In this document: one piece after another, positions 9,133 through 44,902 of the stretch
How the letters are laid out: every line of letters begins with the position of its first letter
How positions within the stretch are numbered: position 1 is the first letter of the stretch
Assembly: GCA_014871385.1 (NCBI GenBank)
Contig: CM026426.1
Span: 28,293,037 to 28,357,036 of the forward strand
From: Ceratodon purpureus
Lineage: Eukaryota > Streptophyta > Bryopsida > Pseudoditrichales > Ditrichaceae
Length of the DNA: 64,000 bases
Direction: 5' to 3'
The notes under the pieces: model-generated
The model's database searches: none
The model's input: the letters and a program-made list of their open reading frames with translations, nothing else
Told to the model about the DNA's origin: nothing
Made by a program: the position numbers and the translations under genes

Positions 9133-9157
9133 AAGGGTGTATTCGTTACATTGAGAC
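9133..9157 (+). repeat. Element A left terminal inverted repeat
   Basis: AAGGGTGTATTCGTTA followed by CATTGAGAC; matches the right end inverted over about 25 bp with one mismatch, then becomes patchy. Confidence 0.88.
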
Positions 9158-9708
9158 AAAATGCACATTTTGAGATTCTCAAAAACGTAATATTGTACTA
9201 AATTAAAGTAGAAGTTGTTGAAAAGTTCTATGATTAAGACTTGCATATCCTCTACCATATTCCAATTGAGGGTTTGAGATTTCAAATACACGAAGCGAGG
9301 GACAGGAAAACCAACACGTAAATACAACTATAAATAGAAGAAGGTAAAATATAAATTATCCTTGTATCATTACTAAAATTAGTAAATAGGGTATACAAAA
9401 TAAAGTACATATGTATGGACTGAACTAAACAAAGTAGAACATCCGAAAACCCAAATACATTCTTAATTTACAAAGTCATTCATTAAGGACGGTAAACCTT
9501 GCATTTCAATATCAAAAGGTACATATAATTGTACACTAATACATAGTGTATGCCTACAAGTAGGAAGAACCAATAGACGACCTATATACTAAGTATATGC
9601 ATGAAGTTTTTTATACCAAAGGAAAAACGTAGAAATACCCTCCTATTTACTTTTTATTTACGATATTACAAATGGAGATGTAATATATTACTGCAACTTC
9701 TCCTTAGA
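9158..9708. other. AT-rich subterminal region of A, no gene
   Basis: Between the left TIR and the stop of the first A gene. AT-rich with short frames only; nothing recognisable. Confidence 0.5.
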
Positions 9709-10539
9709 CTAAGTGGAGTCATTCCGTTTGAATGATTTCTCCAACAACCTAGCATTGGCCTCCTGTTGCTTCATAAGTCCGCGAATAAGATCATTGCGAC
9801 GAGAGTCGGTCATGTAACTAGTAGTACCCATGCTTTCACTTCGACGTGCAAGCCAAGTGTCAAAACCTTCTCCCTCACGCCTACAGAGGGAATCAAGAGA
9901 ACGCGAGGGACGAGAAGGTAGAGGTGAGGCGAACACGTCGGGTGCAGGATATGGACGTGGGGTGCATGATGCTCGCTTTGAGGGAGGTAGGCGCGTTCTA
10001 ACTGACTTTGATTGAGACAACGGGATTCCTCTGGCTATAGGCTGACGTGGCACACCACCAAGAGAACGTGTGGTTCTGGTGCCACAATTGTTAAGGGCTT
10101 CATTCCGAGGTTGAGCGGGAATTATCACTCCACCTCGATTCATCACTAACGGTGACGTTGTTGTAACTAGCTCAGGAGAATCAGGACTGTGCAGCATAGG
10201 ATATAGCGGCCTTTGAGGCGTCTTGCAAGATGGAAGGGTAGGCGACATAGATCGCCTACGAGATGGAAATGTATAGAGGCGCTTTAGAGGAGAAGGAGAG
10301 CAGACACGGGTCCTTATTGGACCTTTACTTGGAGGGCTATCAACAACACCGTCATCCACACTATCTTTCGTAAAATCCATTGTCGCTGACGCCGCATCAG
10401 TAGCCGTGAACATATCAAAATGCTTTGACGCAAGAGAAAAGGCCAGACTTGCTGAAAGCGGCACAGAACAATCGATTGAAGTTCGATATGACGATTCACT
10501 GTCATCCCCGGACTCCAGGGTAGGCAAGCTTGAAGTGAC
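9709..10539 (-). CDS. Ser/Pro/Arg-rich protein of element A
   Basis: The last exon starts after a TTGTTCAG acceptor (exon edge near 10539) and runs about 275 codons to TAG at 9709. It is basic and dominated by Ser, Pro and Arg (CSPSPLKRLYTFPSRRRSMSP, then PLPSRPSRSLDSL), suggesting a disordered nucleic-acid-binding or linker protein. The C-terminus (NDLIRGLMKQQEANARLLEK) could form a short coiled coil. Upstream exons are not resolved. It is the gene closest to A's left end and has no counterpart in B, so it may be element-specific cargo. No family recognised. Confidence 0.55.
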   Translation of the reverse strand, partial: VTSSLPTLESGDDSESSYRTSIDCSVPLSASLAFSLASKHFDMFTATDAASATMDFTKDSVDDGVVDSPPSKGPIRTRVCSPSPLKRLYTFPSRRRSMSPTLPSCKTPQRPLYPMLHSPDSPELVTTTSPLVMNRGGVIIPAQPRNEALNNCGTRTTRSLGGVPRQPIARGIPLSQSKSVRTRLPPSKRASCTPRPYPAPDVFASPLPSRPSRSLDSLCRREGEGFDTWLARRSESMGTTSYMTDSRRNDLIRGLMKQQEANARLLEKSFKRNDST

Positions 10540-11163
10540 CTGAACAACAAATCTCATACAACGACAAAGTATCAATCGGCAGGAGACATCAAAAATATAA
10601 CACGATTTAAAAGGTCCGCGGTCCAACGATAAAAAGGTCAAAAACACATTGGTAGATGAAGCCAGAAGGAAACCGAAGCATACATGGGCCGGGTACTATT
10701 TGAGTGATAGGAAAAACATACGACTTCTTCTTAACAAATACCAACAAGAAAAAAATGTACAAACACCATAAAATCGAGAACTACAAAACTTATAATAGGA
10801 ACATTCATTTCCCTTCGAATGCCCAATGTATCGGGAACCATTTTCAATATCTGCCAAGGTTGGTTTACAAAGTGATATAATATTACATATGATGCCTTTT
10901 TAAATATAACAATCTAAATTGTATAGCAAGATTCTATGTACACGTTGTTCTACTGCCTCCAAAAAGTAAAACAAAGAAAGCCTAAGACGTCATCTGGAGA
11001 AGGAAGGAAAATTCGGCGTCTTGTAATTTAATCCTAAGTTCCTAGTAGACCTGTTCATCCCATCTGTTATGAATCTTCATAGATTGCTATGTATGTTAAG
11101 GGGCGGGACACCTATCCTATGGGCGTCCACATAACCCCGAAGATAGCCCGGACTGCTATTGGT
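10540..11163. other. No recognised gene
   Basis: AT-rich spacer between the Ser/Pro-rich gene and the HAD-like gene. It probably contains introns or upstream exons of the former; no motif stands out. Confidence 0.4.
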
Positions 11164-12010
11164 CTAGAGAGTAAGGAACCAAGGCGTGAGCACCGCTGAC
11201 AGTACGTTGTCATTCTTGTTCGACTTCAACCAAGGCTCAAGGAAGATGTCGTTCCCAGTGTAGTTGCAAATACTCTTCTCTGGACTGGCCTCTATGAGGA
11301 GAGTGTTATCCACGTCAAATATAGCCGCGCCGTCACTAAGCGGAAAGATCGCAGAAGACAGAGTTTTTAAAAATATCTTCTTGTAATTGTTGGAGGGGGA
11401 TGTCAAGAAGACGCCACTATTGGTCTTGATCAAGCCACAAGACTCTTGGCCGAGGATTTCAAAGGGCTTCGGAAGTCCATCGAAGAGGAAGTCAACGACA
11501 CCCTCTACGGTGGACTTCTTCATGGAGCTCTATATAACAACCTTGGCAACATGGGCGGACAGGGACTCCAAGGAGCCCCTCACTCCGGGTCTGCAGTACA
11601 CTGCCTTCGGAGGAATCCTGGTTGGGATGTCTGGCACGTACGACCATTCCCTAGGTTTGCAAATGGGGGAATACTTAGAAAGTGTTGGCAGATGCACACA
11701 CTGACAAAGGATTCCGTTGATGTCGATGACGACATTCAGCCACCTAATTGGCGCCGGCTACTGGACGGCAGCCCTAGGCCGTGGAATACACTCGAACTGC
11801 GGCACTGATTCTACCTGGCAATCAAAGAAAACAGTAAATTGAGGATACCTGATTGAACGCAGAGACACTGGGATCTACGCTAATCCTCAATGACGGCATG
11901 CATTGCATCCAAGCCATTAGGGGCACTGCGTTCGAATTGATTGGCGATCTCACGCCCGTGGGCGCAGAACATTTTCTACAAGAGTGGGCTGACAAACACA
12001 TAAAGGAAAA
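11164..12010 (-). pseudogene. FCP1/NIF-like HAD phosphatase-like gene of A, interrupted
   Basis: Minus-strand frame resembling FCP1/NLI-interacting-factor HAD phosphatases. Visible in order: VVIDINGILC (motif I region; the family has DxDxT or the plant DxNGxLC variant), YCRPGVRGSLESLSAH, SSMKKSTVEGVVDFLF (motif II region, normally I-W-S-S), and FDVDNTLLIEASPEKSICNY (motif III/IV region) with PWLKSNKNDNVLSAVL near the end. In-frame TAGs fall upstream of motif I and at the expected Trp before SSM. A 34-base GT...AG segment (11815-11848) may be a very short intron, since joining across it keeps both sides open. B has a homologous gene at 21663-22268, so a HAD gene is shared cargo at the left end of both elements. 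Confidence 0.62.
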
Positions 12011-12286: not shown

Positions 12287-14733
12287 TCATATTCGTGTAA
12301 TCCTTGAGAATGGTTTATCATGTATGGAAGTACGTACTGCGTTTGTCATATGGTCACGCCGAAATCTTTCCGTTGGGCTCTCCAAGTAATCAACGTGCTC
12401 CTCATCATCGCCGGCAATATCATTTTTTTTCGGAGGACTGGAGCACTTCTCTGCTTGAGGTAATGCGCCAGTATTACAGGTTGTCTTGTCACCAGGCTCC
12501 TCGTATGGGACCGCAATGTCTTGTTGGAAGTTGGCTTCTAACATGGTCGTGTCCAAATCATCCGTAGGTCAGGAATGATCCATCACGACATCGTACTGAG
12601 ATAGCTCAAGCCCAGTTCCAACATGAGAAACAGGTACGACGTCGGAACCATCCTCTTCCTGCAACTTAGAATGTGGTGCCACAGGTTCCGGAACTTCACT
12701 AGTATTTGAAGGTGAGGACGAAGGTAGATTATCGCCGGGCCTAGGATAATCCTCACCAACAGTGGCCAACGCATTTGCTGATTTATTCAAATGACTGGGA
12801 CACTCCTCGCGTGAATCCCGTGATTCAGAAATATTTTGCTTTGATGAGAGCTCTTTCTCCGAAACACATATCACTGATGGCTGTAATGAGGCAGGATTTG
12901 ATATAGCAGTTCCGGAATCATCCCCGGGTCGGGCATGATTCAGACCAGCCTCGAAATGAGAGGCATCAGAGTCGGGATTCTCTACTGAAGGAATGGAGAA
13001 GGCAGGACAGCCGGAGTTATCTCCGGGTCGTGGATAATCCTTGGAAGCCTCAATAGTGACAACACCTGGGACGGGAGGATCAAGGGAGGCCCGACGCTCC
13101 AAATCCTCTTAGGGTTCGAACAAATGTTGTGCAAACTCGACAAGGGATGTGGGACGGCCGGAGTTGTCTCCGAGTCGTGGATAATCCTTCGCAGCTTCAG
13201 CAGGGACAACACCTCGGACGGGAGGATCAAGGGAGGCCCGATGCTCCAAATCCTCTTCGGGTCTGTACAAATGTTGTGCAGACTCGACAAGGGAGATGGG
13301 ACGGACTAGATCCTCGACCGGGGGATCGGAGGAGGCAGCAGGCTCGACAGTCTGAGCCTCCGGGATGGACTCCTTAGCAATAGTCTCATCAACCGGACTA
13401 TCTGGCTCTGGCTGCCTTGACTTCAGGACGATTTGAGCGACCTCCTCGGGCAGCTGAAGATTGTGTTGTGCAAGATATTGCATCACAATGTCTTGTTCCT
13501 GGAGCTTTCGTTCCACTATCTTCTCCTTCTTTGACCTCGCATCTTTGAGCTTCTGCATCTCCTGGTAACGCTCCTCTGCCTTCACCCCCGGTTTGGATGG
13601 GGAAGGGGCTTCTCCAGCCGCATTCTCGAGTGGATCTGCCTCTTCGCAGACGAGTCGCACCCTCTCTTGCTTCACTGCCTTCGTCTGTAAGGGGTTCAAG
13701 TTTGCGACGAGTGTGTCGATAACGTAAACATCCTCATCTTGATCCTCTGAGTCACTAAGGTCAATGAAGACACCACTCGGTCCAACAATTGCAAAAAGGG
13801 GCTTCCCTCGTTTGTTGAGCGCCCTGCTCTGAGGTGTGGTGACAACCTCAGCTGCCACTGATGAGAAAAGCATTGCACATGACGCCCCATCGGTTGGCAA
13901 ATCCACTGCTTGTCCACATGGACTGAGCTCCAGCCGCCGCTTCAATGGCATCCGAGGCTCAAAGGCGTCCCCGGCCCCACGAGAAGAACCTATCCCAACA
14001 ACTGGAGACTCGTTGCTTTGGAGAACCTCATTTGTGGTCTCTTCCCTGCTCTCAGTCAATATCACAGGGATCACTGGAGTTATCCCCGACCCGGGGATAA
14101 CTTTATCCAACTCAAACGCACTGGGAAGGGATGGGGATGAGACTCAAGCCTATGACGCGTCTATGGGCTCCTTCCCTTTCCTGGTCGAAACCGAAGGGAT
14201 CGTAGGGGCCGGCGGCATGAGCTCCTCATCTTCACGCCTCCAGGACTCGGATGCTTGAGAAGCATCCACGATCTCTGGAGCTTGCAGATCAGCATAATTG
14301 TCGTTGTCGGGATTAACAAGCTGATATTGGTTATTGTCATCGTCCTCCTCATCCTCCTCGTCCTCTTCCTCATCAACATCATTTTCAGCATCGTCGTTCT
14401 CATCTCCGTGGTCGAATTCTTCACCAACCCGTGTACTGGCCAGGTTGGATGTCGTCTCTGTTGCAGGTGATTGAGGGGCAGCCTCGCAGTCATCATGTGC
14501 CGCGGCAGCCCTAGTTGAAGGGTGGTTGTCCTCTGAGCTCGACGTAGTTAGCAAACTAGTCCCAGCATCCTGGTCACTTGAGATAGTCGTCGTCTTGTCA
14601 TACGGGCATTGTTGATGCATGAAATCACGCCAATCAACCCTCTTCGCTTTCTTCATTGATGCGGCATGCCTCTTGGCGTAAGGCGCATCAACCAACCCGT
14701 AAGGACGATGACCCTGGATATGGGATTCAATGT
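12287..14733 (-). CDS. Acidic, repeat-bearing C-terminal part of A ParB/MTase-like gene
   Basis: One minus-strand frame runs from an acceptor at 14733 to 12287, broken by several stops. It starts with ESHIQGHRPYGLVDAPYAKRH, continues into a highly acidic stretch of Glu/Asp (about 14300-14400), a coiled-coil-like KLKDARSKKEKIVERKLQEQ, and then two or three copies of a repeat of about 50 residues with the core ASLDPPVxG...KDYPRxGDNSG. The DYPRPGDN part is encoded by copies of the A palindrome itself (for example near 12725-12750, 13017-13037 and 13165-13190; another copy at 14080-14102 codes for VIPGSGIT). The segment follows the methyltransferase-like exon across a 232-bp intron (14734-14965) that also holds a palindrome copy. 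Function unknown; it looks like a disordered tail. Confidence 0.6.
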
Positions 14734-14965
14734 CTAACAATCACAACCAGAATGCTTGATACTTATCTGTGGATCAAGATTATTGTAAATGAAGCAACAA
14801 AAAGTTCAGCAAAACCTAAAGCAACATTGAATCGACACGATGTATCCACGGTCCGGGGATAATTGAATGAAGACCAAATCAGATCTTAGAACTTAGATCA
14901 TCGAGAACCAGAAGAAGGTCAAAGAATTAACCTCAATCAAAGGATAAGCGTATAGTTGAACTTAC

Positions 14966-17964
14966 AACGGATGCGACCATGAACTTGGATCCTGCGAAGA
15001 TTCCCATGGTCGAATCCCCTAGCTGGCAGTACTTCTCGACAAGTTCGATGTAGAACTCCATCCGAAGTTCTGATTCCTTTGAACTCCACTTCGTCTTGCT
15101 GTAAAGGCCAGGCCAACTGTAGTAATGCAATAACGCGGGCTTGTATTCGGCTTTGGCCGAATACTTGAATAGGTCGCCCTAGGGATCTCCCTTCTTGAAA
15201 AGAAAGATGAGACAGACGTCGTTGGCTGCCTTTTCACGAGCTGAGATATTGAACAGCTTCTCGTTGTTCGCTTTTTTGTATTGCGCCAACTCCATATGGT
15301 AGTTCGGGAAATATGTCCGAAGGTTTATTTTCAGTTTTCCGAGCGTTTTAAAAGGCCCTGCAACAATGAAGATTCATACAGGTGGCGCCATGTACACTAG
15401 CTTCTTCAGAGCTTTGGCCACCTTTATGACGTAGTCCAGGGCGTCCTTCTTGGAGTCATCCCCCTTGGAGAAGGCGTATGGCGAGTCTTGCAGATCAAAA
15501 TCACCAAGTGCACAGCGTCCAGTTCGCAATGGGACAAACCATTGGGGGCTCAGTGCTGTGTCTTTTGAGATCTTCATCGTGCGAAACAAACAAGCTGCAT
15601 TGTCCAACACCTCTTGAGCTTTCAAGGCAATGAACGTTTTGAAAAAACTCTCTACGCCGGGGAACTTGTCCTCGAGATCCTTCGCTGTCTTCAGCTTCCG
15701 TTGGTTTTGCAACCTGGTCGAGAAGAATCCTTTGTCGATGTGTCCGAGCAGCATGTTCCATGAAGCTGACGAGAATCTTCGAGCTTTCTTCCACAGCTTC
15801 CACTTCTCTATGTTGAGCTTGTCAGAGTTTGGCAAGAAGAAGGGCAACCCGCTCTTGACAGCCTTCATTTCATGAAGGGCTATGCGCTTGTTCTTCCGAC
15901 GAATGCACCACTCAGCGCAAGAACGTTGATCCCGGTGGTAGTGCTTCGCCTTGCTATTAGACAGCCTGGGGTACGAAGGTTGTCCAGGCTCGTCGGATAC
16001 ATCAACGAGCAGGCAAGACATCTCTTAAATGTCGCTCTCCGTCAGCCTCCCGAGCTTGCAAAAGAATTCACGGTTGATATGGTGCTTGCCGGCCAAGAAT
16101 CAAGCCTTGTTGTTGTAGAAGTAATCGCCCGTGTCGGGGTCGACTAGATTCTCCACATCATGCCTATCAAGAAACTCCTTGAACTTCTTGAAAATCTTAT
16201 TAGGCAACGTTATGATTTGAATCTCATGCTTGAGATCGGTTGCGCTGTTGATACCTTTGCCGTCTTTCATGGGGTCGATGTTATTGAACCTGATGATCAA
16301 GAGATCAACAAATTCCAGAAAATTCCAGGACTATGGGCCTCAATGAATTAGAATGGATGAATGCTACACTAATACAAATCCCTGGGCTGTGATTAAAATT
16401 TGTAATTGAAATAAACCATAACGCACTGTAATGTGAAATTATTGCAAGGTCGGGAATAATTACCATTATAATGGACAAAACACATCAAGAAACGGACAAA
16501 GAAGCAAACTATCCCTGACCCGGGGATAATAGTAGGATGTATGATCAACTTACCTTGTACTTCTTACTGTTGTAGACACTTTTGTTCGATCGAAGGGAGG
16601 CCTCGTTCGCAGAATTTGTCGGACGGCCACAGTTGATCCAGATGGAGCGTCCGAGCTGTATCTGATTCCCCCATGTTGGCTGGGCGTGCGTCAGGGGATT
16701 TGTCGTGTTGTAATGGGCTGATATGGCGGTGAGACGAGACGGGTCCTTGTCATACACGATATATGCATTCCAAGATTGCAGAGACAGCCTTTGGTCGTCG
16801 GTGATCTTCTCTTTCATCAGCTTGCATGCTGCTTCGATGGAGTGCTGGCCGTCAATGATCGCGAACTTCCCGTCTTTGATTTCTTCCCAAGTCGTTGGCC
16901 TTTTTGCGAGAATTTCACCGGTACTCTGGACTGGTGTGACTACAAGAGTCTGTCGCTGACGGATGTCACCTAACCTAGCGAGGTACATTTTAAGACTATC
17001 TTTAATATCATCCTCCAACGCACGAATTGTCCATTGGTGTTTACCGCGCTAGAGCATACTAGTTTGAACCGTCATGGGCTCCTTGTTAAAGAAGAAGGAG
17101 GATCCGTATTCAGCATCGAACGTAGTCTGGGCCTTCGCATACTTCTCCTAGTCAATGCCATCATCCTTCATATTCCTTTTCTTCTCCTTCCTCTTCTCTG
17201 AAGGGCCTATCTCCGCTTCGGGCTGCCTTGCAACGGCCTTCGGTGCCTCTGTTGCTTTCCTCCTATTTTTTTTCTGGCATTGATTGTCCTTCAAGATTGG
17301 CACTTGCTACCCTCTTCTTTTGTGCTGTCGATTGGGCTGGTTGATCTGCACTTGATACTACATGCGATGACCCTGGATTCTCTGTTTGTACACTATATTT
17401 CGGTGCTGACATGCTAGATTTTGCAGGTGTAGCCTTCTTCTTGCTAGACGCTAATTGTTTTGACAAGTTTATTATCAAACGGTTTAATATCCGTGTCAAG
17501 TCCCCTGCATCTGGCTCGCCCCACGCAGCGAGGAGGGCCTTCCATGACTCCAAGAATCCATGCTGAACCTTTCGTAGGTGCTCGACAAACCCTTCCAGTT
17601 CAAACTGTGCACCGCAGATAGATCCCACCTCCACGGCTATGCCAAATTCGTATGTCTCTTTGCTTAATTCTAGAAACTGCTGATGACATTGAATGACGAC
17701 ATACTTTGAACGGTGTTGCTCGAATGCAACCACTCGTACGTTCTGGTGCAGAGGAATGTAGACATCGTTGATTTCCTCACGGTGCATCATGAGCAAGTAA
17801 TTCCTAACAATCCTCAAGGACCAGCTGACGACGGCATCCTTGAATTTCCAGAGATGGAGGTTCTCGATGTCATCTTCTTTCAGGAAGGGAGTGTCACTGA
17901 ATGGATTTTCAAATTGATCCATGACCAAGAACAGTGGGCTTGTATCACTCTCTCTGTCCGCCAT
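14966..17964 (-). CDS. Element A ParB-like plus methyltransferase-like protein
   Basis: The gene starts at ATG 17964 just after a TATTGCAG acceptor, implying a 5' leader intron. The N-terminal region (to about 17263) has no known family and ends in a Lys-rich linker with a frame slip in an A-run. Next comes a ParB-like segment: LVVTPVQS, then FAIIDGQHSIEAACKLM, the DGQH/DGNHR signature of ParB/Srx-type domains. An intron from 16553 contains an A palindrome. Two further exon blocks (about 16340-16100 and 16021-15374) lead to SAREKAANDVCLIFLFKKGD, LRMEFYIELVEKYCQLGDST and MGIFAGSKFM, which match the helix and glycine loop of N4/N6 methyltransferases but lack Asp-Pro-Phe/Tyr. Several in-frame stops occur. 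ParB-domain/methyltransferase fusions are common in phages and bacteria; finding the order here in an intron-bearing transposon is notable. Confidence 0.6.
16505..16531. promoter_or_regulatory. A-type palindrome in coding intron
   Basis: ACTATCCCTGACCCGGGGAT followed by AAT sits inside the intron after the ParB-like exon. The corresponding intron of element B (24345-24500) holds two B-type palindromes. Confidence 0.7.
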
Positions 17965-18002
17965 CTGGAATCTGCAATACGAGTTGCGTTCTAACGTTAA
18001 TT

Positions 18003-18690
18003 CATAAATTTATCCCCGACTCGGGGTTAATTATATGCGCACCAAAACAATAATTAATAATCACTCTATAACTCTAGTGCAGGATACAGCAGTTTTCAAC
18101 GTACTGTGAATCTCGGTGATCCGCACACTTTGTTTGGGACAAATTTTTTGGTCTATTTGCTGTCGACGTTGCTAAAACACCGCTTAAATTTTGTCAGGAC
18201 TTGACCTTGTGATCCGAGCGGTTCTTTTTGTTCGCGCCAGCGTGAAAGGTATGAGTCTCCAAGGGCACAAGCGATAGAACGTAAGTTTATTGCAATAAAT
18301 TACTGAAGGGCATAAGTCAAGTTATCTCCGATTCGTGGGCTAATGACATGTAATTTTTAGATATCTATACGATTTCTCAAATAGTTCAGACTCAACTCTC
18401 TCGGGATCTTTTATCATTGAATCAAGGATAATTGTCTCTCGAAGAAGGCAAATTATCCCCTGGCCGAAAATAATCTGCCTTCATTGAGAGACAGTTATCT
18501 TTAAGTCGAGGATAAATTATCCTCGAGTCAGGGATAACTGTCTCTCTCTGAAGGCAAATTATACCCGGGCCAAGGATAATCTGACTTCATAGAGACAATT
18601 ATCCTTGAGTCAAGGATACATTATCGCCGAGTCGGGGATAAAGTATCCCCGGTCGGGGATAAAGTATCCCTGGTCGAGGATAACCACCCT
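18003..18690. repeat. Cluster of A-type palindromes, leader/intron zone
   Basis: Roughly nine copies or half-copies of the TATCCCCGACCCGGGGATA-type palindrome, dense at 18440-18690 and with single copies at about 18008-18032 and 18318-18345. Variation is mostly C/T and G/A. The cluster lies upstream of the ParB-like gene's ATG (17964), in what appears to be its leader intron. The mirror cluster lies at 39770-40875 upstream of the transposase. Confidence 0.85.
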
Positions 18691-21059: not shown

Positions 21060-21090
21060 ATATATGCCATATTTAACTAATTCTGGACTA
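21060..21090 (+). repeat. Element B left inverted repeat
   Basis: About 30 bp with the core GCCATATTTAACTA, inverted at 38155-38185 with about one mismatch. Probably part of a longer AT-rich TIR. Confidence 0.65.
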
Positions 21091-21194
21091 TTCATTGAAT
21101 TATGGACTATGGATTGTCCAGAAAAAGCAAAGGAAAATGAAAGGGGCTTAGTAAAACCATGCCCCACTGTTATGAATAGTGTATTATTTGAATG

Positions 21195-21475
21195 ATTGGA
21201 TCAGGAGATCTTCCGATATAGAGTTGTTCCAAGACAAGGGAAATGTGTGGACTAAGTAATGTATAGAACATTGTATGATTTGCAAGTCCATGGATCAAGA
21301 GATCTTCCGATATAGTGCCGTTCCAGAAGAACAAATGTATGGACAAAGTAATGTAATGAATAATGTGTGTTTTGCAAAACCATGGATCAGGAGATTTCCC
21401 ATTATAGGTGTCTTCCGGAAGAACAACAGCCATCTCACAATTGCACGAGTGAAATGGTATGGACAAACTAAGTAA
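21195..21475. repeat. Three tandem units near left end of B
   Basis: Three imperfect units of about 95 bp, each beginning GGATCAGGAGATCTTCCGAT (a degenerate B palindrome) and ending near GCAAAACCAT. They are subterminal, as in elements whose transposase binds repeated sites near the ends. Confidence 0.75.
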
Positions 21476-21662
21476 TATAACATTACAAATAATACACATA
21501 GACCGATGATGGTGAAATAGTCATTTACATCACAAAAACGGGTTACATAAATATGAGGTATTGTCTTGAAAGTCATTCGAATGAACAGTGCCATATTATT
21601 ACCACTAATACATTGTGGTACATAGGGACACGGGATTGTAAGCAACTCATTGTATGTACTGT

Positions 21663-29300: not shown

Positions 29301-29308
29301 AAATAGAT

Positions 29309-30800: not shown

Positions 30801-30843
30801 CTCTTGTGAGAATGGACTCTGACAGTGACGTGACGGTCCCCAG

Positions 30844-33800
30844 ATGCCGTCTGTGGGACCTTCCCGTTACGACTTCTCTCAGGAATCAACTGCTCATAGT
30901 GATGAGCTTCAACCCGGGCAGTGTGTGAAGCTTGTCGTCCCCTGTTTCGGAGATGTTGGAATCGGATCTGTTGTCGACGTTAATCCTTCTGGGCAGTGGC
31001 TTGGAGTTAGCATTCCACCTGGCTCGTCGAAATTTATTCTTGTGCGACCATCAAGCATCATGTCGGACGCAAAGGACCTCTTCCTCGAACCACGCCACAG
31101 AGGCTGCATCGTTTTGAGGGATGCTATGAATCGAACAGTCTTCTGGAGAGCTGGTGATGCGATTGCATTGTTGCAGGATCCTCCCATGAATGATGTTGAG
31201 TACGTTCGTTAACAATCCTGGATTGGTCTGGAAGTTCAGAAACTAGACCTTGCGGGTGCGGTTATAGCCTCCGGTAGAGTGTTCTGCTAAGAACCAGAGG
31301 AGTATTTCCGAGACAAAAGATTGGGCGAGGGATACATTGGAGTGACAATCCTCGAGGTCTTTGTCGAGGACACTGATGCCATAATGAGTAATGAGCGTTG
31401 GTTGATATTTGAATGCAAATATCCAAACGGCCCTTCTCTTCGGTCGATAGTCGGGCATTTCTCCCGAATCCCAATGGAGGTAGATCCACAAGATCACCTT
31501 GGAGGCAGACGGAAGGCACCTTACCGGTTTATAGTGCGGAAACCTAAAACGCATGAAAAACGTTTGCTGTACAATACGAAGACAGCGGATGCTGAAGTGA
31601 GGAAGGTTAGCTCCGAACGATGCTGCTCGAAGCATTGTTGTTAGACATTTCTCCGGGAGCTCACACTAATAGTGCGTAAGAAATTCTATTCGAAATCCTT
31701 TCAGGGAAGACGGGAATACAGGATTGCGGCGGGTGGACAGATGCATTCAGTCGACGGTGACCGTAGGAGGAAGTACTTGACGCTGCATGGTTTGGAAGTT
31801 TGCGCAACTGCGTGGTATCTTATTCACGGAGTTCCCAAGTCAACTTTTCATAGCTATGTCCAAAGATACAACAAATGGGTTCTCTCAACAGCGCATGGAA
31901 ACAAGGGCTACAAGCGACCGAGGATCGGAACAGTTCAAGTCATGGGTACTATTGCTGCTATTGTAGACGAGAATGCAGATCAGATGCCCGATCAAATGCG
32001 AGGAATCGGAAATGGACGAGTGGACACTCTGAAATATCTTCCAGCAGGCAACATCTGGAAGCGAGTGATGGCTGACGCCAATGAGGTACGAGTCTTTGCT
32101 TCGCGTGTCTTCTAGTGTCATTGCATCGAGAGATCTCCCGATAGAGGTTACTTTCGTATTGAGAGTCCGTTCTCTGTCTTATAGGATTGTTGCACTCTAC
32201 CTACGTCATGCAATATAGAACTCTTTTTCCCGTCTTCGGTGATTTGTCTCCATTTGTCGTGTGATACTTCGAGCTTGTTCGCTTGCGTGCGTCTCTTTCT
32301 TTGCCTCACCAGCCATTTGGACGTTCTGGTGCTTTGCAGAAAAATGTTTCATTAGGTCTGCCTACAGTGAGCCAGTCTACAATTAGTAGAATTAGAAGTT
32401 TACTCTTCAACAATATCGCAATCAAACCGATTGGAAGTTCTTTTGCGAAATGCTCGACATGTGACCAACTTCAAGAATTCATTCTGAAGTCAGCCAACGG
32501 AAGTCCAAAATATGTTGACTTCGTGAAGCAACGGGAGGAGCATCTTGCTCACCAAGCCTCTTGTCGTCGTCTGTATGGTGCATGGCGCGAAGAATCAAAG
32601 CGCAATCCCAGTGAGATTCTGTGCATCATTCATGACAAGATGGATACTGCAAAAACCGCCCTTCCCCGGATGCGGGTTACAACAAAGGCTACTCAAGGTT
32701 TGGGCCAGCTTCCTATGAATGTCACTGGTATGGTTTCACATAGGCACGGGGATGGCGCCTATGCACATTACTGTCCTCAGTGTTGGCCAAGAGATTCTAA
32801 CGCCACAATATCGTCGTTGGCGAGGATGTTACGTCGATTGGAAGGCCCCTCATTTCGGGAGTCTGGGAAACTATTTGAGTACCCCCCGCAAAACTCACTG
32901 TTTGAGACATTGTTGAGGGGGAAGTCTAGGTGCCTCGACATTTTACCGCGTATAGAGGGATCCCCCGATGTCCAAGGGTCGAAACCTTTACCGAGGAAGT
33001 TATACCTTCAGCTGGATAACTCCGCCAAAGATAACAAGAACCAATATCTCATGGTGTTTCTCTCCCTGCTGACTGCACGGGGTGTTTTCAAGGAAATTCA
33101 GGCTGGATTTCTACTAGTGGGTCATACGCACGAAGATATTGATGCTTATTTTAGCCATTTGTCGAAGGCATTAAAAAGCAAGAATACGTTTGTTCTAGCG
33201 GATCTAATGAAGGCCTTCATGCAGTCCCAGGAGTTGTCATTCATGCCAGAGTTCATTCAAGAGGTTGCAGACTTCAAGTCTTTCATCAAAGGCTATCAAA
33301 GTAGTGGTGCTTCACGCCTTATTGGACTTGAAGAGATGCACCTTTTCAAGTTCTATGTGGACGATGATGGTTGGCCGATTATGAGGTACAAGAAATCAGC
33401 CGTCAACGCACAATGGCTACCCCTCAATAGACCCCCTATTCTATTGTGGAATGAAAACATGGATGGCGGCCCAAAACTTCCTCACGGCTCACCAAAGCCG
33501 GTTCCGTTCAAACCTATGTGGGGAAGTGAGGTTCCTAAATCTACTGGGAATCAAGTGAAGGCCAGAGAGACCGCAGCCAAAGCTACTGAGAACAAGAAAT
33601 TCATGAAGTGCGGACTCCAAAAGTACATTGAGTGCTAGAAAAATGGAATGGCAAAATGCGAGGGATTTGCAGCAGCTTTTGGGCCTTATGTTGACTACTG
33701 GACTCGTTTGTTGTCTGAGCTTGATAAGCCTCTGCCAGTGACAAATCCTGAATTGTTAGAGGGTTTCTGGCCAAGCCATGACTGGAGGGCCGTATCCAAC

Positions 33801-34260
33801 GGAGTACCACGCTCAAGATTTTTACCCTTTTTACTTGAGGATGTGACTCCTGAGGATGAGCCGAGCAAACGAAGCTTCGGAGAGTCCTTTCAATCCATGC
33901 CGTGATATCCGGCCTGGCAGCTGGGTTCTTTTGAGACCTGAAGATCCACTCATTTGTCGTGTATGGTAGGGAAGAGCAGCGACTGCTGTATGCAGAGAGG
34001 AAGGCCATGTAAACCATGGGAAATTTTGAATTCACTTTTGGGAACCTCGTAGCGTGGAAAGAGACCTTGCATTGAAATACCGTAACTGTTGGTCTGCTAA
34101 GTGGGTAGTAGAGACGCGTGCTCCAGAGTGGGTCTCTGTTGGTGGAGCTTTGTTTAAAAATTGGTCTAAAATCAAAGACCCGTCTACTAGAACCATTCCT
34201 AAGAAAGCTATGGAGGCTGCTTTAGCAAACTTAGAGAGAGCTAACGTAGTTGATCCATGA
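30844..34260 (+). CDS. Element B transposase-like protein (DUF7869-type), interrupted
   Basis: The start is ATG 30844 after a CAG acceptor. Order: a novel N-terminal region; a Cys-rich motif (RCCSKHCC); LHGLEVCATAWYLIHGVPKS, an HTH-like segment; an intron at about 32090-32340 with a B palindrome at 32122; then the core. In the frame opened at 32283 the core has C57/C60, IHDKMD (D118, D121), YLQLDNSAKDNKN (D245) and GHTHEDID (H281-D287), resembling the D...D...GHTxxxxD pattern of DUF7869-type proteins, probably RNase H-fold transposases. The C-terminus (34054-34260) resembles A's. Stops and a late frame break interrupt it. A palindrome at about 32955-32975 is translated (IEGSPDV). Role as the transposase is inferred from conservation in A and B. 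Confidence 0.72.
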
Positions 34261-34799
34261 TCCTCTATGCCACTTAGGAATGACAGAGGCTCATCCCTCG
34301 ATGATTACATTTGAGTCACCTGTCTTCCTCATTCTCTATTAAAGAAATAAGAGTCATCACTGCTTGACCGTTTCTCATCCCCGTGTAATATCATCCGTCC
34401 TCGTGTCAATGATGTTTGTTTCTGAGATTTGTGACACTTTAAGAACCAACACAATCATGAATTCGCAACGTGGAGACTGATTGTGGAAGCAGATGGAGTA
34501 GTGGGAAACTGAAGGAAGCAAGTAGAAGCTTTCAGAACAAGGGGGGAAGGAGAAAAACTTCAGATTCATACGCCCAGTTCATTTGGTGTCGAAAAACTTG
34601 AACTTGGGTGTTGTGTTCAGCAGCGACTTTGGCAGCGGCATTGCCAGCAACGCAAGTTACGGAGCAGGTGAGAGCAATGCACACATACATGGGCCATGGC
34701 CAATCGACTTGAGTTTTTAGTTGAAATTTTGTTCATGCGTTTTTAGGTGTATTGGTATGTCAATAGCTATTAAACACCGTGTCCGCATGCTTTTTCAGT

Positions 34800-35625
34800 T
34801 TGAGTCATTCAGAAGTTCCGTATCAGGTGAGACTACTTGATATATTAGAGTTGAGCAGCTATGGTTTGCATGTGATTCATGACAACATAGACAAAGGAGA
34901 TCAAGCTTTTGTCGCTAGTTTTTGGAGCTGATCAACTAGGCTGGGCTGGTTCTGTCTAGCACCGAGACTGTTGGGTTCTTGAGCAATTAGCAACACGAGT
35001 CATTGAGACGTTGTGTATCAGGTGAGATTAGCTGGTGTATTAGTTTGAGCAGATATGGTTGGCATGTAATTAGGTTTTGGTCCACTGGAGTCGTCGTTTT
35101 CCTAATACATATGGATATACAATGTCGACAGCCTGATCCCACTGTATGTTGTTGCATTTTTGTCTATTTTTTATCACTGTTATCGTGACGAGTTGAGCAA
35201 GTTTCATTAGTTGAAATAAAGACGTAGTTGATTGATGTGTACTCGAGACATTTGTTGGGCTACTTGTTAACGAATTGGTTGTTTGTTTGAGGGGTAATAC
35301 TGATAACACATGTCGATCAAATACTTTTGTTGAGGTGGAAAGTTGGCTAAGTGCTGCGATGAACTTGTAGTTGAAGAAACCATTAATACCGCATCCGAAG
35401 CTTTGATAGAAATTGTTTGATCGCATGACCCATTTTTACTTACTAGATTTAGACATTTCTGCTTGATGATTTGCGTGTTACTTGCCCATTACAATTAGAT
35501 AACATAAAGGTTTCTGTTTTTATTTATTATGTACTATTTGAGCAAGTCATTGAGAAGTTCTGTATCAGGTGAGACTACTTGCTGTACTAGAGTTGAGCAG
35601 GTATGGTTTGCATGTGAGTCGTTGT
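34800..35625. repeat. Three dispersed 75-bp copies in B
   Basis: Imperfect copies at about 34803-34882, 35000-35065 and 35547-35622, each with GTCATT, then GTATCAGGTGAGACTACTTG and a shared TTGAGCAG...TATGGTT end. They lie upstream of the gene at 35914, probably in its leader. Confidence 0.75.
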
Positions 35626-35913
35626 TTCTTGATAGATATGGGTACACATTGTCGATAGTCTAAAAGGTTGGATTTTTTTTTGAGTTTAGCTCTAATGTTG
35701 TGTGAGTCATGGGCTGTGGAGGTGGATTTACATTCATATACATCATGTGTTTCAGTTGAAGGATTTGAGATAACATATCTTGTCATCAGTTTTTTAGTTT
35801 CTTTGAAGTGTGTTGTGGTTATTGGTTCTTTCGGATCTGGTTTTATGAACTTCATGTGGGTCTAGAATTTTCTAATATTTTTTTTTTGAATTTTTTTTCT
35901 ACAGGTTATAGGT

Positions 35914-36540
35914 ATGGAATAGGATCCGATTATCAAGAAGGGGAAGATGAAGATTGAGGATGGTTCAACCTCCCAGAAGGAACCCGAGTTGGTCTTCAAT
36001 GGAGATTGCGAGCAACCAGAGGTTCCAGTCTGGAAAGATTCAGCAGCAAGGAGGAGAAATGAGTTTCAATTCATGAAAGATGCACCTGTGAAGCTGCCTT
36101 GCCTACGACATTGGCTGAAGGATGTGGCGAAGTTTCAGGAGACAACAAAGTATGAAGTACCTGAATTCGACAAAGTTTCGGGGATGGTTTCTGAAGGATG
36201 GGATGGAACTTGGAACTCCATAGCTTTGAGGCAATTTGTGGCCGTTGCAAATGCAACTAGGGTGATGCACCCTCCAAGGAACAAGAAGAACCAACTCACT
36301 TACATCAAGAATCAGGTCATTTCTATCAAGAACCACCTCATGGAGACAATGGAGACAGAGTCAGCTCCAGCTCCAACAGTGCGAGCTCCGACAGTGGCAA
36401 CTCTGAAAGTGACTGGATATTCTTTCACCAAATATCAAGCAGCCATCAACAAAATGGAAGAAAACCGCAAGGAAAAAACAGCTTACATCGACTTGAAGGA
36501 TGAAGAGACAGAGGGTGAAGAGACTGAAGAGATGATTTAG
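35914..36540 (+). CDS. Unrecognised charged protein specific to element B
   Basis: After a TTTTCTACAG acceptor, the ATG at 35914 is followed by a TAG as third codon. The frame then runs about 205 codons from DPIIKKGKMKIEDG to TAG at 36540. It begins acidic/basic, has a compact middle (FQFMKDAPVKLPCLRHWLKD; TWNSIALRQFVAVANATRVM) and ends with an Ala/Pro/Thr linker and a Lys/Glu tail. If the ATG at 35947 is used, the protein is intact at 197 residues. An ACAG|GTATGT donor at about 36573 implies a 3' UTR intron. No family recognised and no counterpart in A. Confidence 0.6.
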
Positions 36541-37289
36541 CTGAGTTTGGCAAAGAAGTAGAAACACTAAACAGGTATGTTGAATCATTCTTATCAAGTT
36601 CATTGAAATGTAGATTTTCGGTTTCTTGCTCGGATTTTAGTTCCTCCTTGTTAACAGGATTGCTGGATTGACCTAATTTAACTCAACTCAACTTAATTTG
36701 GGTTCCCACTTCGGTTTCCTTTCTGTTAATCAAGTTAGTAGGCTTCTGTTACCTAACAGTGTCAATCAATTTCTTTCAGTAGTCACTAATTTCACACTAG
36801 TGATTCTCATTTTTGAGCGTTTAGTTGCAGGAGTTTCAGGATTTGTAAGTGTGGTGGATTTTACGAGGAGGATTTTACTTCTGATGTAGCGGATATGTTG
36901 TAGTTTGAGACTTCAGGTGCCATTGAGGCAGCTTTTGTAGTTCTATGTTTCAGCGGTCATGTAGTAGATTTTTTGTAAAAACATTCCTACTGTTCTCGTT
37001 CTCTGGACAATTCTGTTTAAGTACTTTCATAGACTTCAGTTGCCATTGAGGTCGGTTTTGAATTTTGAATAGGAGACATGAAGTTCTCGTAATTGTAAAT
37101 TCTCAATCTGTAATGGTGGTTGTATGAGTAGGGTTACTTGAATTTGTTGAATAGGTTTGAATGTGTGAATACCGTAATGCACTCGATCGGCAGGACTTAA
37201 TAGACCGAGTGCAAAATCAAAATAAATTAATTCCTCAAAAAACAGAAACTAACATTGCACACAAAATAACGTCGCACACTAAAACTGTT

Positions 37290-38060
37290 TAAAGTTTTTT
37301 GATCAGAGATCCTATGTGCTGTTTAGGTACGACATCGGGAGATCCCACGACGGGTCCGTCTGAGTTTATTCTCTTCCTGAGTTAATTCTCTTCCTTCTGA
37401 TCGGAGATAAGTTTTTTGATCGGAGATCCTATATGCTGTTTAGGTACGACATCGAGAGATCCCACGACGAGTCCATCTGAGTTAATTTTCTTCCTGATCT
37501 TCTGTTAATGACATCGAATTCATCCATGCCTGAAGGATTGTCAGGCTTCCGTGTAATACCTGCCTTCCTCCTGTCAATGATATTTCATTTCTGTAGATGT
37601 GTTTCGAATCTGCTTCCCATTTCTAATATGTTGGTCATGTTTGATATTGGAGGCATCCTGTGACAAAACAATGCTCAACCGACATGCATTCTACTGTTCT
37701 CTATCTCGCTTGCCATGTGCTGATATCTCGTTCAAGTTTGATATCGCGGGATCCCCCGATGAATACTTCCAAGCCCCCATCTCTTCTATTCTTTTGTATT
37801 ACCCCAAACCCAATGTACGTATATCTCAGTCAAGTTGGCTGCTGGGGATCCCGTGATGAATATTGTAGAGCCGAAATCTCTTTTGTTTTCCGTTCCTTGC
37901 TCGCAATGTACGTATAATTATCTGGGTCAGATTTGCTATCGGGGGATCTCGTGACACATACTCTAATGCCCAAATGTCCTCCGTTCTTTTATATCTCGCT
38001 CGCAATTTAGTTATATCTTGGTCAAGTTTGGTGTCGAGAGATCCCGTGATGAATACTTCT
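37290..38060. repeat. B-type palindromes near right end of B
   Basis: Copies at about 37333, 37449, 37742, 37840, 37935 and 38034, several with CG to CA/TG changes. A duplicated unit of about 80 bp (37296-37375 and 37406-37485) carries the first two, with GATCCTATGTGCTGTTTAGG between. Confidence 0.8.
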
Positions 38061-38154
38061 GAGCCCGTCCACGACGGTTCTTCCCATACATTGTTACGCT
38101 AATGCTCTAAATTTATCAGATCTCTGATAGGTGATTACTTAATTCTGGACTCTG

Positions 38155-38185
38155 GACAGTCCAGAAATAGTTAAATATGGCATAT
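38155..38185 (-). repeat. Element B right inverted repeat
   Basis: Inverse partner of 21060-21090. Just inside both copies are short TTCTGGAC...GTCCAGAA hairpin arms. Confidence 0.65.
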
Positions 38186-38250
38186 ATAATTGTTCCATGT
38201 AAAAATTATATAAAATTTGTTGTATACAAATGATATATGTTCATGTTATA

Positions 38251-39769: not shown

Positions 39770-40875
39770 CAATTATCCCCGGGTCAGGGATAACCTCTAA
39801 AGTATACGGACATATTTATTCTTGACCCGGGGATAAATTATTTTTGGGTCAGGGATAAATTATCCCTCGGTTGGGGATATATACATCTTTAATAATATAC
39901 GGTTTATACCCGGCCTGAAGATAAGATTTCAAATGTTATAATTCTAGGTTGGGGAAATTTGCTCTCCTGCGACACATAATTCTATCGAGATCTGTTTATC
40001 TGTTGGCCAGGACAAAGCATCCCTGGGTTAGAATTAAATACATACTTTCTTCTAGTCCACGAATTTATCCCCCACCAGGGATAAATATTTATGTCTGTAT
40101 TTATCCCTGGCTCGGGGATAAAATATACCCGAGTCGGAGATAAATACAGCCGGGTATATATATTGCCAGAGATTTGATACGTTATCCCCGGGTCGGGGAT
40201 AACTTTAGATTGAATAGAGCTTAGTCTATCCCTTGTTCGGGGTTATCGCGGGGATAACAATTGATGATTACGTGGGTTACCTGGGTTTACTTATCCCCAG
40301 TCCTAGGATTATTCTATTTGTAAGAGAGACCTTTATGAAAATAAAAGTAAATATATAGTTTATTTTTAAATGGCTATGAGAGAATTAGTAGTATCTCCAA
40401 TCCGGAGATAATTTAATAGTACAAATTCTTCGTAATAGATATAAATAGTTTGCATTGGTATGTTTTGTACAAATGGAACAATAGTCTATGATGTGAAACC
40501 GATATGATATCACCTGAACATATAATTCCTTGACACAGAATCATTCCGGGTTGAGTATAATTTTTAGTTCATAGTTACAATTGAGAGTTGAAATGTAAGA
40601 GCGTCAACTGCATTAAATAATTCGTTTGGTGTATGACTTAAAATAATAAACTTATCCCCTGGTTGGTGGTAATTTGTCCGAACGTCCTGATATGGCGTTG
40701 AACTTTTTGTTCAATATCTAAGGTTACTGAATATGGGCCTCTATGACCCTAAACCCGAGCGAGGGATAATAATGGTCGGCTTAAATATATATTGTCGTGT
40801 TGGTCCTTGGGCTAGAGATAATCCGTTTTAGTTGATCTGCTTCACGCCTTGTATCATCCCCAACCCGAGGATAAT
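39770..40875. repeat. Cluster of A-type palindromes before A transposase
   Basis: About twelve copies or half-copies, including TATCCCCGGGTCGGGGATA near 40182-40202 (a near-perfect palindrome) and others at about 39772, 39822, 39842, 39862, 40066, 40102, 40235, 40655, 40750 and 40856. They lie in the leader/intron upstream of the ATG at 41027, mirroring 18003-18690. Confidence 0.85.
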
Positions 40876-41026: not shown

Positions 41027-43834
41027 ATGAGTGATTTTATCATCGATGGTGTGGACTTCCGGCCTCCAGTGCTTCCCAATGATGTTGCCCAATGCAAAGG
41101 TTTCGAGAGATATTCATGGGTGTCCAAACCAGTCACACTCTTGAATGAAGCTGGAGACGATGTTGCGAAGGCTGTGTGTCAGTCTGTGGACTCCTCACTT
41201 GTTCCAGCGACTAATGGTAGACCACTAGGCACAAACTTTGTCTGTGTTCAAATTGCCGAGTCTTTGTTAGAATCTGATGTTCCATTTGGATGGATTTACT
41301 CCCTGCGTGCGTGGCCGATCAAACGTATCATTCTCAATGGTGCCAGCCTTTACGACCACGACCAACGAGCCATCTTCAATGATGTAATGAAGACATTTGG
41401 AAGACTTCCTCAGAATGGCGTTCGTAAGTACGAGAGTACCCGCTAAAGGCGACCTTGTGAGTCACCAGCGAAAAAACAATTTTTCTTGACAACCGAGTCA
41501 ATCAACTATGTTTCGACCAACACCTGTTGTTCTAGAAATTGTGTTCAGCCTTTCCCAAGAGGGAAAATTAAAGATCTTAGGACTCAGTTCTATGTGACCG
41601 ACGGTGTGTTTTTTAGAAAACATCGTCTTCTCGATGTTCATGGGCAAATCCATGAAGATGCTCATGGAAACGATATGATAACGTTGGAGGGTATTGAGGT
41701 GTGTTGCACCGCATAGGGCTTGATTATGGGTGTGTCAAGGGCCACGTTCTTTCGTTACACGTCTTTCTACCGAGACGGAGCTCAAGCAGATCATCATGGA
41801 AATTGTGGTTCCAAGAAGCTTCATATCCACACTGTACAAGCAACTATGTCAATTGTGGAAAATTCCGCTGACCTCATGCCGCATCGCACTAGGACGGCTC
41901 CTACTGGCAAGAAGGTAGTCTCAAAGTGCTTGCCCTCCTCTTATCGTTGGAGAGATAGCTTACCACAAGTGAATGCCGTCAACGCCATGAATGACCTCTC
42001 TCCCATTTCGCCTTCGACCTTGAGCAGGATAAGGCAAGAATCTTTCTTAGAGTATTATGCAAAGCCAAAGGGTGACACTTTTTCTCGTTGTGGTGAATGT
42101 GATAAAATTAAGCAGCTTCGAGCATCTAGTACACCTGGTAGTCGTGCATGGGCTCTCCACGATGCGAGATTCAGAAAACACAACACATCTCAAATGTTGT
42201 ACATGCTACTGTATTACGCCAACCGTGAGGAGTCAAAGACAAACCCTGACAAGGAGTTATGTGTTATCCATGACAAAATGGATCATTCTAAGACTGCCTC
42301 TCCGCAGTTCTCCCACAAGAGCAAATCCACAGATTCCTTTATGAAATTGCCGGTTTCGATCACAGGCATGATTGCGCAGGGGCATGGTGATGTTCGATAT
42401 GCACACTACGGCCTTGACATTTATCTGACAGATTCCAATAATACAATTGGGTCATTTGCCCAACTACTAAGAGATTTGGAATCTCCACCGAAATCCTCCA
42501 CCAGGGAGTTGTTTGCGGGTGGTAGAAGTAGCCTGCTCTCTGAAGCAGTTTTGAATGGTGCTGATATTTGCTTGGATTCGCTTGGTCTTCAACCGGAGGC
42601 ACCAATCCCTGCTAAACCACTACCTCCGGTGTTGCACATGCAGCTCAATAATGCATGCGAAGAAAATAAGAACGGGTTCGTATTTGCTTTCTTTTCTCTT
42701 CTGGTTTATAAACGCATTTTTAGGGAAATTTATTTAAATTTCCTTATTGTTGGGCACACTCATGAAGACATTGACGCTCTATTCCGGCGATGGAGCAATA
42801 ATCTCAAGAGCAACAGTTACCCAACTGTACCCCTTCTCATGAAATCATTTATGGATACTGAGGAAATGCTAGTGATTCCTCACATTATTGAGGAAGTACC
42901 CAATTTCAAGAACTTCCATGAAGCCTTCCTCTGTGATGGGGACGAAACATTAACAGGGCATGCGAGTGCTCAACAATTCAGGTTCTTCAAAGATGCGTCT
43001 GGGTGGCCTCTTATGCAATACAAAGTTCTTTGTACGGATAGTGAGTGGCTCCCAAGAGAGAGTGCTAGAATTAGGTTGTGGAAAGCATTACCTAGTGGAG
43101 ATCCAAAGGTTCCTTCAGGAGATCCAACAATACTTGTTCCAAGGGAGATGAGGAATATTGACGACATTTGCAAGGAAATTAGTGGATTTGTGAACATGTA
43201 GGAGTCATTGGCAGATGCTGATCCAACAGGGGATTACCGTAGGCAACATGAGCATATCATTTACTATTGGAAAGTTGTTCACGAGGCTCTAGACTTCGAT
43301 ATTCCTACGCCCTCTGCGTTTAGGAACGGATTCTGGCCTACTTCTAGGTTTTCTCCAGGTAAGGAAGATATATATGAAGAGAATGGCGAATTACGTGAGG
43401 AATATGATGATGATCCTCCATTTGTAGGTCCAAGGCGAGACCGTCCTAACGCATCATTTAGAGTTATGCGCGATTGTTATGAAGGATATCTACTTGCGGT
43501 TCGTCCTGCAGATGAAGATGCCAAGAAGATTTGGATCGCCCGAGCTTTGAGCAACCCACATGATAGTGTGGAGCATCCTGACTCTATTCAGCTAGAGTAT
43601 TGGAAGCCAGCATCCTTTAAACATGTCAACCCTGAAACCTACGAAGGATGGGACACAAAGAAAGGTAACTCTTGGTTGAGGGACACAAAGTATGGACCAT
43701 CTTGGGTGGCTACTTCTTCCATCATTACAGCCTGGAAACCAAGATTCCGCGCCGACACAATCAGTCCAAAGATGTCCATACCGGAGGCACAAATCCATGT
43801 GATCAAAGATTCTCTCTTGGAATTTGTCGACTAA
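41027..43834 (+). CDS. Element A transposase-like protein (DUF7869-type), interrupted
   Basis: The start is ATG 41027 right after a TTTGCAG acceptor. A single frame of 935 codons runs to TAA at 43834, crossed by a TAA near 41446 and TAGs near 41716 and 43201. Order: N-terminal region; CCSRNCVQPFPRGKIKDLR; TLEGIEVCCTA then GVSRATFFRY (HTH-like); PSTLSRIRQES; CGECDKIKQL; core with IHDKMD, MQLNNACEENKN and GHTHEDID; and a C-terminal domain (YLLAVRPADEDAKKIWIARA) reminiscent of BAH-like folds. The residue equivalent to Asp in B's LQLDN is Asn here, so catalysis is doubtful even apart from the stops. No intron interrupts the core, unlike B. Homology with B is clear along most of the length. Confidence 0.75.
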
Positions 43835-44289
43835 TTTGTTGCCGTATATATTTTAATAGTTTACTGGAATCTTTACTTGTTTTTACTTAGAGACATGTAC
43901 TCCTAGCTTAAAGAAGAGTAGCATTTATTATGTTATTGTTTGAATTTTATAGTGCTGACATGGTGTTTGAATATTTACTTAAATATTCTCATCTTCACCT
44001 TCAATTGGTTATTCAAATATTTGTATTTGCAAAATGTTTTAGTTATGTAATCTTTTTTATTGGAATTTTGTCATTGTTTTTATTATGTTCTCTATGGAGT
44101 CCAATATAGTTATGTTATTCGTGGCCTTTGTTGACACCAAGTCATCAGCTCGAGTGGTTGGTTGGACAGAGCGGTCTCATATTGGTGGTCCGGGTTTGAT
44201 TCTCTACAGAGCCTGTCTGAGCGACATTTGTGGCCGGATGGCTTGGTACTGCTGGTGTATAGGCAGGAAGTAAGAGTTGTGCCAACCAC

Positions 44290-44877
44290 CCTAACCCCAT
44301 ACCCTCTAAACAGTGACAAGTGCTTATACTAGTGCTAACAACAGTGGTTCAACCACTAACCCCCCCATCCTTTTATATTATACTTGGTCGTAGTGCGTCT
44401 ATTCTACATAGGAGTGGTTGGTTACGAGTTTAGGTAGATGGAATTTTTATATACGAGTGGGATGTTGTGTAGCAATCTCATTTTAATTGACGTGCCAAAA
44501 TACTTGGTTCTAATTGGACATGTATATATTTATAGTATATTTGCATATCAAAGGCGCATCAAGATACTTGGTTCTAATTGGACATGTGTATATTTATAGT
44601 ATGTTTGCATATCAAAGGCACAAACCTATGATTTATTTTCAAAGATTTTGATTTGTATTCGGGAATGCCATAATGCTAAGTAGTCTCAATTTACTTGGTG
44701 TCTCAAAATAATTGGTTATAAAAGACATAATTTATATTTATAGTATGTTTTGATATTGAAGGTGCAACTTAGATTTTACTTTGGTAAGTTTTTTGTCCAA
44801 ATATAATAATTGTCTCATTTTATTTGACATTCATTTCAAATGATTATGGCCGTGACTTTAATTTGAGATTGCAAATC
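44290..44877. repeat. AT-rich right subterminal region of A with tandem units
   Basis: Two good units and a weaker third of about 75 bp (from about 44490, 44562 and 44690) with AATACTTGGTTCTAATTGGA, ATTTATAGTATATTTGCATA and TCAAAGGC. They lie just inside the right TIR. Confidence 0.75.
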
Positions 44878-44902
44878 GTCTCAATTTAACGAATACACCC
44901 TT
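44878..44902 (-). repeat. Element A right terminal inverted repeat
   Basis: Read on the minus strand it is AAGGGTGTATTCGTTA followed by AATTGAGAC, the partner of 9133-9157. GTAG follows at 44903. Confidence 0.88.

Follow-up and report, generated by a model that had tools for sequence, protein, structure and literature searches.

The 64,000-nucleotide stretch analyzed here (hereafter the window; C6:28293037-28357036, on the 110.5-Mb contig C6), which probably comes from the moss Ceratodon rather than from a charophyte as the original prediction had it, contains two giant transposons bounded by terminal inverted repeats (TIRs), A and B, with B nested in A. Our preferred reading, to which we give a probability of about 60%, is that these are decayed cut-and-paste transposons in which a DUF7869 protein would be the transposase, and a ParB-like protein would bind palindromes characteristic of its own family for anti-silencing or derepression.

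The borders of both elements are clearly defined. Element A spans positions 9133..44902 (35,770 bp including B, about 18.6 kb without it), with the TIR AAGGGTGTATTCGTTA. Read from 9129 to 44906, it runs from GTAG followed by AAGGGTGTATTCGTTA to TAACGAATACACCCTT followed by GTAG, the two GTAG copies (9129..9132 and 44903..44906) being its target site duplication (TSD). These ends are exactly those predicted earlier, and the reading frame of the host gene is open again once A and one GTAG are removed, whereas keeping both GTAG copies leads to a frameshift. At four other loci in the genome (L001, L004, L005, and L006) homology to the ends of A starts at AAGGGTG and the flanks differ. Element B (21064..38183; 17,120 bp; TIR ATGCCATATTTAAC) sits in the AT-rich center of A and runs, between 21060 and 38187, from ATAT followed by ATGCCATATTTAAC to GTTAAATATGGCAT followed by ATAT, its TSD copies lying at 21060..21063 and 38184..38187. 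Perfect 4-bp TSDs are present in all six copies with both ends visible: GTAG for A and ATAT for B in the window, GATT for B5 (another copy of B), and ATAT, AATT, and CCTT for X1, X2, and X3 (copies of a third family, X), the last four having been read by eye. Together, the TIRs, the TSDs, and the empty-site frame of A identify these elements as class II DNA transposons.

The candidate transposase is encoded rightward in both elements. In A, the DUF7869 gene occupies 41063..43732 on the plus strand (PF25273, E = 1.3e-38; its QLDN reads QLNN). In B, two plus-strand exons are found at 30767..32088 and 32265..34257, the first being 92% identical to B5 over 419 amino acids and the second matching PF25273 with an E value of 8.2e-45, with a frameshift near 33.87 kb. 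The A protein is 33% identical to B exon 2 (E = 1.8e-92) and 28.5% identical for exon 1. DUF7869 is similar to DDE transposases, and acidic residues D101/D104, D227, and E266 (P0003 numbering) are kept in at least 90% of 20 DUF7869 sequences. While the TSDs and the gene linkage described below are observed, the enzymology is what we infer, namely that DUF7869 is an RNase-H-like DDE transposase, which would give PF25273 a likely function. A literature search returned no paper mentioning DUF7869, and a PDB sequence search gave no match for queries A3 and A4 and one match at E = 0.67 for A1. As a separate observation, the DUF7869 frames of A and B carry a TAG (43199-43201 and 33636-33638, respectively) at the same tryptophan position when aligned by eye (P0001, P0071).

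Most of the other genes are carried on the minus strand. In A, they comprise a HAD/FCP1-like gene (11167..11757; frame broken between 11529 and 11533), a half at the position of the predicted methyltransferase (14602..16330; in-frame stops, approximate limits), a ParB-like exon (FAIIDGQHSIEA; 16548..17048), and an N-terminal exon 5' of the latter (17266..18009). In B, HAD2 (21666..22298; 97% identical to B5 HAD2) is followed by the methyltransferase-position half (22951..24427; frame broken; 87% and 92% identical to B5 in two pieces) and a ParB-like half (24463..25866; one in-frame TAG), composed of a possibly PH-like N-terminus and a ParB/Srx-like part; then come, on the plus strand, the two DUF7869 exons and open reading frame (ORF) 5, of unassigned function (35902..36471; 74% identical to B5 ORF5). 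The main matches of window B to B5 thus range from 74 to 97% identity at the amino acid level. The ParB-like exon of A can be aligned with those of B and X (21% identity to B), sharing I-I-x-G-Q-H. The claim that A and B share the same genes in the same order therefore stands for the leftward HAD-like and ParB-like genes and the rightward DUF7869 gene, but not for the methyltransferase-position half, which in A shows no significant similarity to B or X.

The HAD-like proteins belong to the FCP1/NIF family, as judged by PF03031 matches in A (E = 6.5e-9, two pieces joined by the placeholder residue X), in X2 (E = 1.7e-9 and 6.4e-13), and in HAD2 of B5 (E = 1.5e-4; 21.9 bits for a cut-off of 21.8), while the window copy of B HAD2 is under the cut-off (E = 0.0058). 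The A protein is 24.5% identical to B HAD1 (E = 8.9e-4). HAD1 adjoins HAD2 in copies B5 and B2, but a search of window B (21064-22951) gave no match for HAD1 at the level seen there. FCP1/NIF HAD phosphatases have the catalytic motif DxDx(T/V). When read by eye, this motif is absent from A (DINGIL), X2 (DLNGFL and SVNGLL), and B5 (DLNGVL and SVNGVL).

As for the half labeled methyltransferase-like in the original prediction, its versions in A, B, and X have no usable Pfam, NCBIfam, or PHROG match, and hhalign comparisons among A, host gene E, and a B/X profile yielded nothing significant (E = 0.3 to 0.72). The label is unproven, although it may be right by analogy with a giant transposon of Ectocarpus discussed below. 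The only recognizable DNA methyltransferase (N6/N4 type) among these genes is host gene E, which is split by A into a part before the insertion (44907..45147, minus strand) and a part after it (8320..9128, minus strand, exon limits by eye). When its pieces are joined by eye, it matches phrog_6952 (E = 2.2e-6) and PF01555 (E = 1.5e-4; 22.2 bits, under the Pfam cut-off of 26.7). E had been taken for a third, outer member carrying the same gene, but it is not detectably similar to the A, B, and X halves in the hhalign comparisons, and the window shows neither a TIR nor a transposase nor a family of palindromes belonging to E.

A third family, X, is found in the same genome with the same gene order as A and B. 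In both B5 and X2, HAD2, HAD1, acidic ORFs, the methyltransferase-position half, and the ParB-like half follow each other in identical order on one strand, while the opposite strand encodes the two DUF7869 exons and then a small ORF6. B and X have similar TIRs (ATGCCAYATTTAA) and are 62% identical in DUF7869 exon 2, 46% in exon 1, 53% in HAD2, 40% in HAD1, and 25-30% in the methyltransferase-position half. Their ParB-like proteins are far more diverged than the transposase (28% versus 62%). The rightward ORF6 (L024:7087-7641 in B5; L030:8293-8823 in X2) is more conserved than the transposase, with 76% identity over 119 amino acids. The middle of the B copies in L017-L024 is also made up of tandem repeats about 128 bp apart, in an array whose length differs among copies.

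The association of DUF7869 with the ParB-like gene extends to the whole genome (362.5 Mb, in 151 contigs). Among nine loci picked for open ParB-like frames, with their other genes not known beforehand, six contain DUF7869. The others are one locus whose nearest listed DUF7869 place is at a distance of about 22 kb, one in a stretch that ends at a contig end, and one with no DUF7869 among the matches listed. Scoring the best 93 of 1191 DUF7869 candidates gave at least 95 matches in 93 places, and scoring the best 150 of 416 ParB-exon candidates gave at least 152 matches, from which 138 places were used; because of these candidate limits, all genome-wide counts are lower bounds. A ParB-like place lies within 30 kb of DUF7869 for 79 of the 93 places (within 10 kb for 68, with none within 30 kb for 14), and in all 79 cases the two genes are divergent. 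By comparison, 200 rotations, for which some contig extents were guessed, produced a mean of 4.4 and a maximum of 14 linked places. Independent scattering of the two genes in the genome is therefore rejected. The proposal that giant TIR transposons form an abundant family, with ParB-like, HAD-like, and transposase-like genes in common, is supported, the HAD linkage being seen in the copies examined individually. According to our own tally of the matches listed, 72 of the 93 DUF7869 places are on C6. The Ceratodon purpureus genome is described as 360 Mb, with U and V chromosomes of over 100 Mb each that make up about 30% of it (PMC8000587, seen in part); the window would lie on one of these two chromosomes.

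Many copies of these elements have open frames and are 98-99% alike. Window B, when compared with the consensus of three other agreeing copies, differs at 289 of 5240 sites, of which 125 are C>T or G>A, 38 are T>C or A>G, and 126 are transversions. Recoding of TAG or TGA was considered and rejected, the stops being scattered among copies, many of which are open over 468 amino acids (ParB-like) or 671 amino acids (DUF7869). Since the stops are sporadic and open-frame copies numerous, we read the in-frame stops as decay.

Each family carries its own palindrome, in about 17-42 copies per element. The B-type palindrome CATCGRGRGATCYCYCGATG has 24 sites in the window (up to three mismatches), all within 22316-37761, for an expected number of 0.03. 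The A-type TTATCCCCGRSYCGGGGATAA has 17 sites, all inside A but outside B, for an expected number of 0.00, with one match in an X2 flank. The X-type ATCGTAGGATCCTACGAT (up to two mismatches) has 37, 36, and 37 sites in X1, X2, and X3, respectively, and is absent from their flanks, from B5, from the window, and from the examined part of B2. At 18 bp and up to two mismatches, the B-type is found 39 times in B5, 41 times in the part of B2 examined, and once in each X; at up to three mismatches, the window contains 30 sites, of which a single one (58545) is not in B. B and X palindromes are near-perfect and share the frame ATCG-N3-GATC-N3-CGAT, and X2 contains 26 perfect 18-bp palindromes, with a spacing that is often 57-60 bp, whereas 20 controls yielded 0-1.

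In B and X, the palindromes are mostly noncoding, nearly all being located in introns or between genes: none of the 36 in X2 falls in the coding cores (7.2 of 18.6 kb), and 2 of 42 (up to three mismatches) do in B5 (9.2 of 21.5 kb). In A they are partly genic, with 6 of 17 sites in the leftward-gene stretch (12729..14862), 5 of these within long open frames. Two main clusters flank the AT-rich center in each element, upstream of the leftward gene (18010..18660 in A; 26016..26405 in B, six copies) and upstream of the rightward gene (39773..40874 in A; 30484..30791 in B, seven copies). Judged by a search of the literature that gave access to its sources in part, these family-specific palindromes are new here; they were not mentioned in the original prediction, and we hold them to be the most unusual feature of the elements.

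Fast divergence of a protein, combined with a family-specific, dispersed, mostly noncoding motif, is the pattern seen for the VANC proteins of VANDAL transposons, and ParB proteins bind palindromes, which led us to propose self-recognition. A and B would belong, as decayed copies, to a group of giant elements of about 17-22 kb each that move by cut-and-paste, and in which the DUF7869 DDE enzyme would act on the TIRs and leave 4-bp duplications. The leftward genes carried within the TIRs would encode two FCP1/HAD-like proteins that lack the usual catalytic motif, as well as a long protein made of the possibly PH-like N-terminus, the ParB/Srx-like part, and the methyltransferase-position half. 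The ParB-like protein of each family would bind the palindromes of that family and coat its own element, as VANC does on VANDAL transposons or ParB on parS DNA, which might mark own copies for anti-silencing, its likeliest purpose, or derepression. A more specific version is tentative, and we lean slightly against it: each family may evolve a palindrome and a matching ParB-like protein whose coating of the element decides its epigenetic fate, in the manner of ParB/parS, with B and X as two specificities of an ATCG-N3-GATC-N3-CGAT code. If so, families of the same lineage with similar TIRs would be kept apart by the palindrome alone.

Other explanations were weighed against self-recognition. 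It is unlikely that these are ordinary Sola1 transposons with a known accessory gene whose palindromes are neutral, satellite-like repeats. The 4-bp TSDs would fit, since this is the length known for Sola elements, but avoidance of coding cores (0/36 in X2) would be unexpected of neutral repeats, as would near-perfect palindromes with a frame common to B and X. The same reading would also fit the ParB-methyltransferase gene found on the opposite strand in Sola1-1_Ec32 of Ectocarpus (PMC12477816, seen in part). It is rather improbable that the palindromes serve replication or transcription, either as origin iterons around the AT-rich center or as regulators of the two divergent promoters. The position of the main A and B clusters, flanking that center upstream of divergent genes, and the 57-60-bp spacing in X2 are what such elements might show, but introns and the spaces separating leftward genes contain many copies, away from the divergent promoters, and no replication protein was matched in the Pfam scans made. 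CACTA and MULE subterminal repeats are transposase binding sites, and clusters upstream of both genes, together with some sites near the termini, might suggest the same here, leaving the ParB-like protein to another role; this is very doubtful, because the palindromes occur throughout the element, introns included, rather than only at the ends, and differ between B and X despite 62% identity in transposase exon 2 and similar TIRs, the ParB-like proteins being only 28% identical. A viral origin was also considered, but one scan of viral contigs gave 30 pattern matches, none of which was confirmed as a relative.

Other mobile elements surround A in the window. To its right, positions 46013-63044 contain a long terminal repeat (LTR) retrotransposon with 620-bp LTRs that are 98.7% identical and leftward gag-pol-like frames. 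A second LTR-like pair (51130-51747 and 63374-64000; 94% identical) has one member inside this retrotransposon, while the other runs past the window end. To the left, a Harbinger-like DDE_Tnp_4 transposase (1281-2582, plus strand; E = 2.1e-24) and a Myb/SANT protein (3480-4286, minus strand; E = 4e-7) are probably encoded by one Harbinger element.

Among known transposons, KDZ elements have 8-bp TSDs, EnSpm/CACTA elements have CACTA-type termini and 2-3-bp TSDs, and MULE/VANDAL elements have TSDs of about 9 bp and a MuDR transposase. None of these agrees with 4-bp TSDs in six of six copies, termini AAGGGTG and ATGCCA, and PF25273 as the transposase candidate. The Sola superfamily has the 4-bp TSD found here, a likeness based on TSD size, not on transposase sequence. 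The family is not undescribed in kind, as had been thought, since the 21.5-kb giant transposon Sola1-1_Ec32, with an opposite-strand gene encoding ParB-like and DNA methyltransferase domains, is already in print, as is the idea that proteins of this sort may bind the transposon encoding them and modify it (PMC12477816, seen in part). Our elements resemble it in their giant size, in an accessory gene opposite the transposase strand, and in the ParB-like domain. They differ in that a DNA methyltransferase domain is reported there, whereas A, B, and X have no usable methyltransferase match; the word "phosphatase" is absent from the main text of that article, which, in the part available, does not mention palindromes or moss elements.

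ParB-methyltransferase accessory proteins reportedly also occur in transposons of green and red algae (Iyer 2011 and Petroll 2025 are said to describe them), the likeness being a ParB-like protein borne by a transposon. With ParB-parS partition and Noc, the elements share palindromic sites and a putative ParB/Srx-like fold, for which the evidence is weak. However, no ParA is seen in the genes examined, a partition function is not implied, and the sites are numerous and spread through a nuclear transposon.

VANDAL transposons are MULEs, and VANC is not ParB-like. One of the closest known parallels is VANC, which in Arabidopsis recognizes a short motif that recurs in introns and gaps of the family encoding it and co-evolves with the protein (PMC5735166, seen in part). 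VANC motifs are 8-9 bp long, and no word beginning with "palindrom" occurs in the part of that text available, whereas our repeated motifs, likewise family-specific, mostly noncoding, and paired with a fast-diverging protein, are palindromes; anti-silencing would be the function common to both. For anti-silencing, it is an open question by what means a transposon tells its own long DNA from that of close relatives. With several protein/site families in one genome, and many open-frame copies that are 98-99% alike, both specificity and co-evolution are directly testable here, and self-recognition could account for the recurrence of ParB-like proteins in giant algal transposons.
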